Source: Phycisphaerales bacterium (GTDB lineage Bacteria; Planctomycetota; Phycisphaerae; Phycisphaerales; SM1A02). Taken from it: a DNA stretch of 64,000 nucleotides. The stretch's first letter is position 1; every line of letters starts with the position of its first letter. The position numbers and the translations under genes are program-made. The notes beneath the pieces were generated by a model. That model did not search any database. It was given only the letters and a program-made list of their open reading frames with translations, and was not told the DNA's origin. The DNA lies in assembly GCA_022446885.1 (NCBI GenBank), contig JAKVBU010000018.1, forward strand, positions 1 through 64,000, given 5' to 3'. Below are positions 50,650-51,820 of this stretch, piece by piece.

Positions 50650-51378
50650 TCAGCGCCTACGTCGCCCTACCATCGCAACAAGGGGCAACAGCCCCAGTGC
50701 GCCTGGGCCGGGCACTGCAGACCAGGTGAAAGACACGTCAGAAGAGACACCCGTGGCAGTGCCATCAAAGAACAAAGCCGCGTAGTCTTCCCATGCCTGA
50801 TCGGTGTAGACCAAGGTGTATGCACCGGGGCCGAGGATCCCGTCTGCAACTCCAGCCGCGGCGCCGCCATCACCCTCGATAGCAGTTGTCCAAATCGTGT
50901 CCTGCGTATCGGTCGAAATCAGCGACACTGCAGCGCTGGCGTGGAACCAGTCACTTGACACGCCGCCCATGACCCATGAGTTCATCACAAACTCGATTGA
51001 CCACTCCATGGTCTGGTGCGTTTCGAAACTAATGCTGACCGTGTTGAATGCCGATGCGGCGGGGTACTGCCCCATAAACTGTGCCTCAAGCAACATGGCT
51101 GAATCTGCGGCAATTGTCGCACCACTACCGTCTGCTGCCTGATCTACGGCCAGGGCGCCTATGACCTGAGCCGATGCGCCACCGATCATCGCCACATCTG
51201 CCTCCCACCAGTCCACCGACGCCTCCGTGTAGGTCTCATTGGAGATGTTGAAACTGTCCCACTGGTCATTCTCGTCCCACACGTCCCCATGGATGGATGA
51301 CGAATACGCCCAGGCGACAACATCCGCGCTGGCCCATGGTGTGAACAGGCAGATAGCAGCCTATGCACTCGATCGCAT
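50650..51378 (-). pseudogene. PEP-CTERM-like secreted protein with in-frame amber codon in its signal peptide
   Basis: The uninterrupted frame runs from a GTG at 51282 to the stop at 50650 (210 codons) and ends in the sorting tail PGPGALGLLPLVAMVGRRRR. It has no signal peptide if started there. Upstream in the same frame the text reads AAICLFTPWASADVVAWAYS, preceded by a TAG (51361-51363) and then MRSSA starting at an ATG (51376-51378) with a GAAGAGAG-like ribosome site. Restoring one sense codon (for example TTG for TAG) would give a normal signal peptide. The gene is therefore probably inactivated by a point mutation, or this base is a sequencing error. Confidence 0.65.
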
Positions 51379-51530: not shown

Positions 51531-51557
51531 AAGGACGCGCCCGGGCGGGGCGTCCTT
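51531..51557 (-). terminator. Intrinsic terminator of the small membrane-protein gene
   Basis: AAGGACGC and GCGTCCTT (51531-51538 and 51550-51557) form a hairpin around an 11-base GC-rich loop. On the minus strand it is followed by TTCTTGCGTTTT, a T-rich tract, about 80 bases after the stop of the gene at 51629-51820. Confidence 0.65.
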
Positions 51558-51628: not shown

Positions 51629-51820
51629 TCAGGCGGCTCGCTGCTCCATTGCGAGGGTGTGCTGGGGCGTAGGGGGTGCAGTCTCTTCCGGCTGCGCCGC
51701 CTCGGCATATCGCACTGGGTTGACACGCTTGACCACCTCATAGCGTGTCCACCAGAGCGGGCCTGCCGCCAGCATGCCTCCCGCAAGGGCCATGGCCTGG
51801 ATTCTCCAGAACCGTGTCAT
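51629..51820 (-). CDS. Small membrane protein (63 aa), unknown
   Basis: The ATG has a strong AAGGAGAG ribosome site seven bases away, and a terminator follows the gene, so it is likely real although short. One transmembrane segment (AMALAGGMLAAGPLWW, residues ~9-24) is followed by a basic stretch and an Ala/Pro/Glu-rich tail (AAQPEETAPPTPQHT). I do not recognise a family. It is transcribed away from the efflux operon. Confidence 0.65.
   Translation of the reverse strand: MTRFWRIQAMALAGGMLAAGPLWWTRYEVVKRVNPVRYAEAAQPEETAPPTPQHTLAMEQRAA

Follow-up and report, generated by a model that had tools for sequence, protein, structure and literature searches.

In the window, that is the whole stretch of 64,000 nucleotides analysed here, we found on the minus strand a gene for a PEP-CTERM-type surface protein in which a TAG codon interrupts the signal peptide. 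This is probably an accessory gene that was recently inactivated by a single-base nonsense mutation in its signal peptide, leaving an effectively null allele. The gene, apparently stand-alone, would encode a PEP-CTERM/exosortase substrate, and the mutation would end translation within the signal peptide, once five codons have been read. Since a protein lacking its signal peptide would not be exported, and since a restart at GTG 51282 (the sole notable in-frame restart after the TAG) would give a cytosolic product devoid of that peptide, the allele should be effectively null. We infer that the TAG is a true base of the organism, that it stems from a recent mutation and that the gene yields no useful protein.

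Anatomy of the interrupted frame

Read on the minus strand from 51378 down, the gene begins ATG CGA TCG AGT GCA TAG GCT GCT ATC TGC CTG. Its features are listed below.

51376..51378, minus strand: ATG, presumed start codon of the gene, with purine-rich GGGAAGAGAG just upstream
51364..51378, minus strand: n-region of the signal peptide, MRSSA
51361..51363, minus strand: in-frame TAG (amber) codon
51325..51360, minus strand: remainder of the signal peptide, AAICLFTPWASA; cleavage is likely after ASA (placed by eye)
50725..51324, minus strand: mature orphan domain, for which neither family matches nor orthologues were found
50653..50724, minus strand: PEP-CTERM-type sorting tail, WSAVPGPGALGLLPLVAMVGRRRR, recognised with a profile built from 19 of this genome's own tails
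50650..50652, minus strand: TGA stop codon of the gene
51538..51552, minus strand: terminator-like hairpin of a small upstream gene, conserved in a congener

The sequence-only reading had described the ATG, the in-frame TAG at 51363-51361, the open frame and the VPGPG...RRRR tail, and all of these are present. It had also given the start a ribosome site; here the ATG holds, but the purine run GGGAAGAGAG upstream of 51378-51376 is only a weak Shine-Dalgarno match and not a textbook one. Downstream of the TAG, the frame runs from 51360 to 50653 as 236 codons free of stops and ends in the PEP-CTERM-type tail SAVPGPGALGLLPLVAMVGRRRR. An AlphaFold2 model of the protein, built from the single sequence, reached a pLDDT of 41.5 and was not taken on to a fold search, and an Rfam scan of the whole window returned no RNA families.

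By scoring the frame with the codon usage of the neighbouring genes, we obtained +66 bits for 50653-51282, the other five frames ranging from -45 to -161. For the 26 codons that separate the TAG from GTG 51282 (51283-51360), the score was +4.4, against -14 and -6 in the other same-strand frames; this score is weak when taken alone because one antisense frame nearly equals it (+4.0), and the coding assignment of 51283-51360 therefore rests mainly on its signal-like sequence. Only when the TAG is read across does the N-terminus, MRSSA-X-AAICLFTPWASA, look like a signal peptide, judged, as all signal peptides were here, by eye and by hydropathy. A frameshift rescue was rejected, as neither of the two alternative frames in the start region shows a hydrophobic signal.

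Translation might instead start at GTG 51282, or at a rare start nearer the TAG, with no signal peptide at all and with MRSSA arising by chance. A GGGG lies just upstream of this GTG, but only about two bases away. Moreover, hydropathy is -0.11 at the GTG start versus 1.75 across the TAG, the signal-like stretch sits exactly upstream, and an exosortase-type tail would be pointless in a protein that is not exported. We thus hold such a start to be very improbable.

We then estimated how often such an arrangement occurs by chance, by scanning the six frames of the window for stop codons with an in-frame ATG and a loose ribosome site at most 15 codons upstream, and with a hydrophobic signal-like stretch carrying an A-X-A-like site spanning the stop. 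Only 4 of 2746 stop codons were flagged, among them the TAG at 51363-51361; the open frame behind it is long (236 codons), whereas those behind the other three have 29-70 codons. The other three are antisense to strong genes, so that the scan shows no further split gene in the window.

These results bear on the possibility that the gene is intact and the TAG an artefact, namely a base-call or consensus error, or the allele of a minority strain, in a draft assembly. The genome is a draft of 108 contigs, and the lesion is a lone one in a frame that is otherwise clean and shows no decay elsewhere, both of which would fit an artefact. On the other hand, the scan found no other split gene in the window. 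Substitution errors are as a rule rare in polished consensus sequences, whereas real nonsense alleles are common in bacterial accessory genes. Altogether, we consider an artefact unlikely, and rank it below an inactivated gene.

Regarding the age of such an inactivation, 77 single-base changes could create a stop across the 236 codons and no further stop is present. The lesion is therefore probably not old, although this limit is loose; the clean frame also fits a base error or a still functional gene. In bacterial pseudogenes with a single nonsense codon, among the in-frame stops surveyed in PMC7918605, one stop likewise lies in an open, coding-like frame. The present case differs from them in having no orthologue that could reveal the ancestral codon or date the lesion.

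The sorting tail, its siblings and the exosortase

A typical PEP-CTERM protein carries a signal peptide, is encoded by a single-gene operon and has no homologues beyond its tail (PMC1569441). Like the known PEP-CTERM/exosortase substrates (TIGR02595, EpsH family PF09721; PMC1569441), the gene has a Pro-x-Pro motif, a hydrophobic stretch (here a helix) and a basic cluster at the very end, all within its tail, together with an orphan mature domain and an apparently stand-alone position, in a genome that has many siblings and one clear exosortase. It differs from them in two respects. First, its signal peptide is interrupted by TAG. Second, the standard tail contains the Glu of PEP, whereas this tail reads VPGPG and is matched only by the profile of own-genome tails (E 1e-9, the profile including this tail itself). 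A TIGR02595 search up to E 10 listed 21 other places and not this tail; several sibling tails likewise fall below the TIGR02595 cut-off. The tail aligns with 18 other tails of the same genome with invariant P-x-P and RR columns, and the own-genome profile finds 28 tails in this genome and 3 to 29 per genome in 20 relatives.

The exosortase (C16:14103-14897, 147.6 bits) carries the C-x-G, N-x-x-R and H-x-x-x-G motifs. A weak exosortase-like hit that contains one in-frame TGA (G000:C24:7883-8035, L158) may be a remnant or a chance match.

Among the other 27 PEP-CTERM frames of the genome, a signal-like N-terminus was seen in all complete ones except a short frame on contig C87. One frame, on C21, is cut by the contig end, and the frame on C44 shows a normal start, MKKFMLTAAGLASVGLAGTAMAA, upstream of an internal ATG. 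The arrangement with an in-frame TAG, which the sequence-only reading had proposed to look for in other genes, is shared by no sibling frame, and none of the siblings other than those on C21 and C87 shows a single stop inside its signal peptide. The C87 frame (tail at G000:C87:84307-84378, minus strand; L031 / L100) measures 120 aa, follows two in-frame stops and lacks a clear signal peptide, and no other sibling ends in TAG; it is probably a truncated or decayed sibling. Together, the tail family, the exosortase, the intact signal peptides of the siblings and the coding score give good support to the earlier view of a PEP-CTERM gene whose signal peptide is cut by a nonsense codon.

TAG as a terminator in this genome

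The sequence-only reading had also suggested that the organism might read through TAG at a low level. In the window alone, TGA ends 32 of 33 called genes, which made TAG look rare. This hint of TAG avoidance disappeared in a 464 kb genome sample, where the stops of 321 genes, called approximately from codon usage by a home-made procedure in the sampled stretches, are TGA in 281, TAG in 29 and TAA in 11. The preference for TGA is thus strong at both scales (32/33 and 281/321; L159-L178), and TAG accounts for ~9% of terminators. Given that 29 of the 321 called genes end in it, TAG is a working terminator in this genome, and for many of these genes the extension of the frame past TAG is short and non-coding. 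Moreover, no CUA anticodon was found among the 47 tRNA genes of the genome, RF1 (C29:19769-20833, L069) keeps VPATE and GGQ, and RF2 (C65) keeps SPF and GGQ. The RF1 score of 348 bits is below the TIGR00019 cut-off of 423; as the key motifs are intact, this probably reflects divergence of the lineage.

A TAG-recoded genome would be recognised by a CUA tRNA, a lost or changed RF1 and avoidance of TAG, and this genome has none of the three. Reassignment of TAG to an amino acid, for which the apparent rarity of TAG in the window had spoken, is thus refuted by the tRNAs, RF1 and the terminator counts, and genome-wide readthrough is not supported on the same evidence.

The gene could in principle still be functional if low-level readthrough of this one TAG set the dose of a surface protein. 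Beyond the TAG the frame remains intact, and conserved in-frame stops with suspected readthrough have been reported in bacteria, in a survey that nonetheless assumes most such events not to be functional recoding (PMC7918605). Against this speak the 0 of 47 tRNAs with CUA, the intact RF1 and the share of TAG among terminators, as well as an arrangement that is absent from the sibling frames and conserved by no orthologue. Dose control of this kind is therefore improbable, and we give an even slimmer chance to its specific form, in which leaky termination within the signal peptide would limit how much of the surface protein is exported.

A lineage-specific gene and its meaning

An inactivated accessory gene, as we favour it, leaves the question of the intact allele, which the earlier reading had proposed to seek in homologues. 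We searched for orthologues in genome contigs, viral contigs, plasmids and 100 relatives, and also in 400 genomes of the order, and obtained only tail or insignificant matches; an exact pattern spanning the TAG site had zero matches in genome contigs. With no orthologue found, the intact allele was not seen and the original codon cannot be read. The TTG proposed earlier is hence a guess, several sense codons being one substitution away.

Two congeners, G001 (L154) and G002 (L153), keep the genes that flank the site, with an S8 peptidase on one side and a small minus-strand gene plus an efflux operon on the other. Between these syntenic flanks, the PEP-CTERM gene is absent in both, G001 carrying an unrelated short frame at this position. 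The gene is thus a lineage-specific orphan, gained here or lost elsewhere, and its loss would probably cost little.

The small upstream gene (about 51630-51820, minus strand, about 62 aa, MTRFWRIQAMALAGGMLAAGPLWWTRYEVVKRV...) is conserved in both congeners, is too short for the ORF list (limit 80 aa) and is followed by the terminator-like hairpin. As one such hairpin was found vs 1.0 expected by chance, its conservation is the better evidence for it. The lineage-specific segment extends upstream as far as the hairpin at 51538..51552.

Most likely, then, this case is an ordinary inactivating mutation or an assembly base error, with no unusual genetic code. It matters mainly for annotation: an automatic gene caller would overlook the gene or place its start at GTG 51282, giving a protein that has no signal peptide. 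It also shows by example that genes for PEP-CTERM substrates in this group can be accessory and turn over fast: this one occupies a site from which it is missing in congeners, and was then apparently lost by one mutation.
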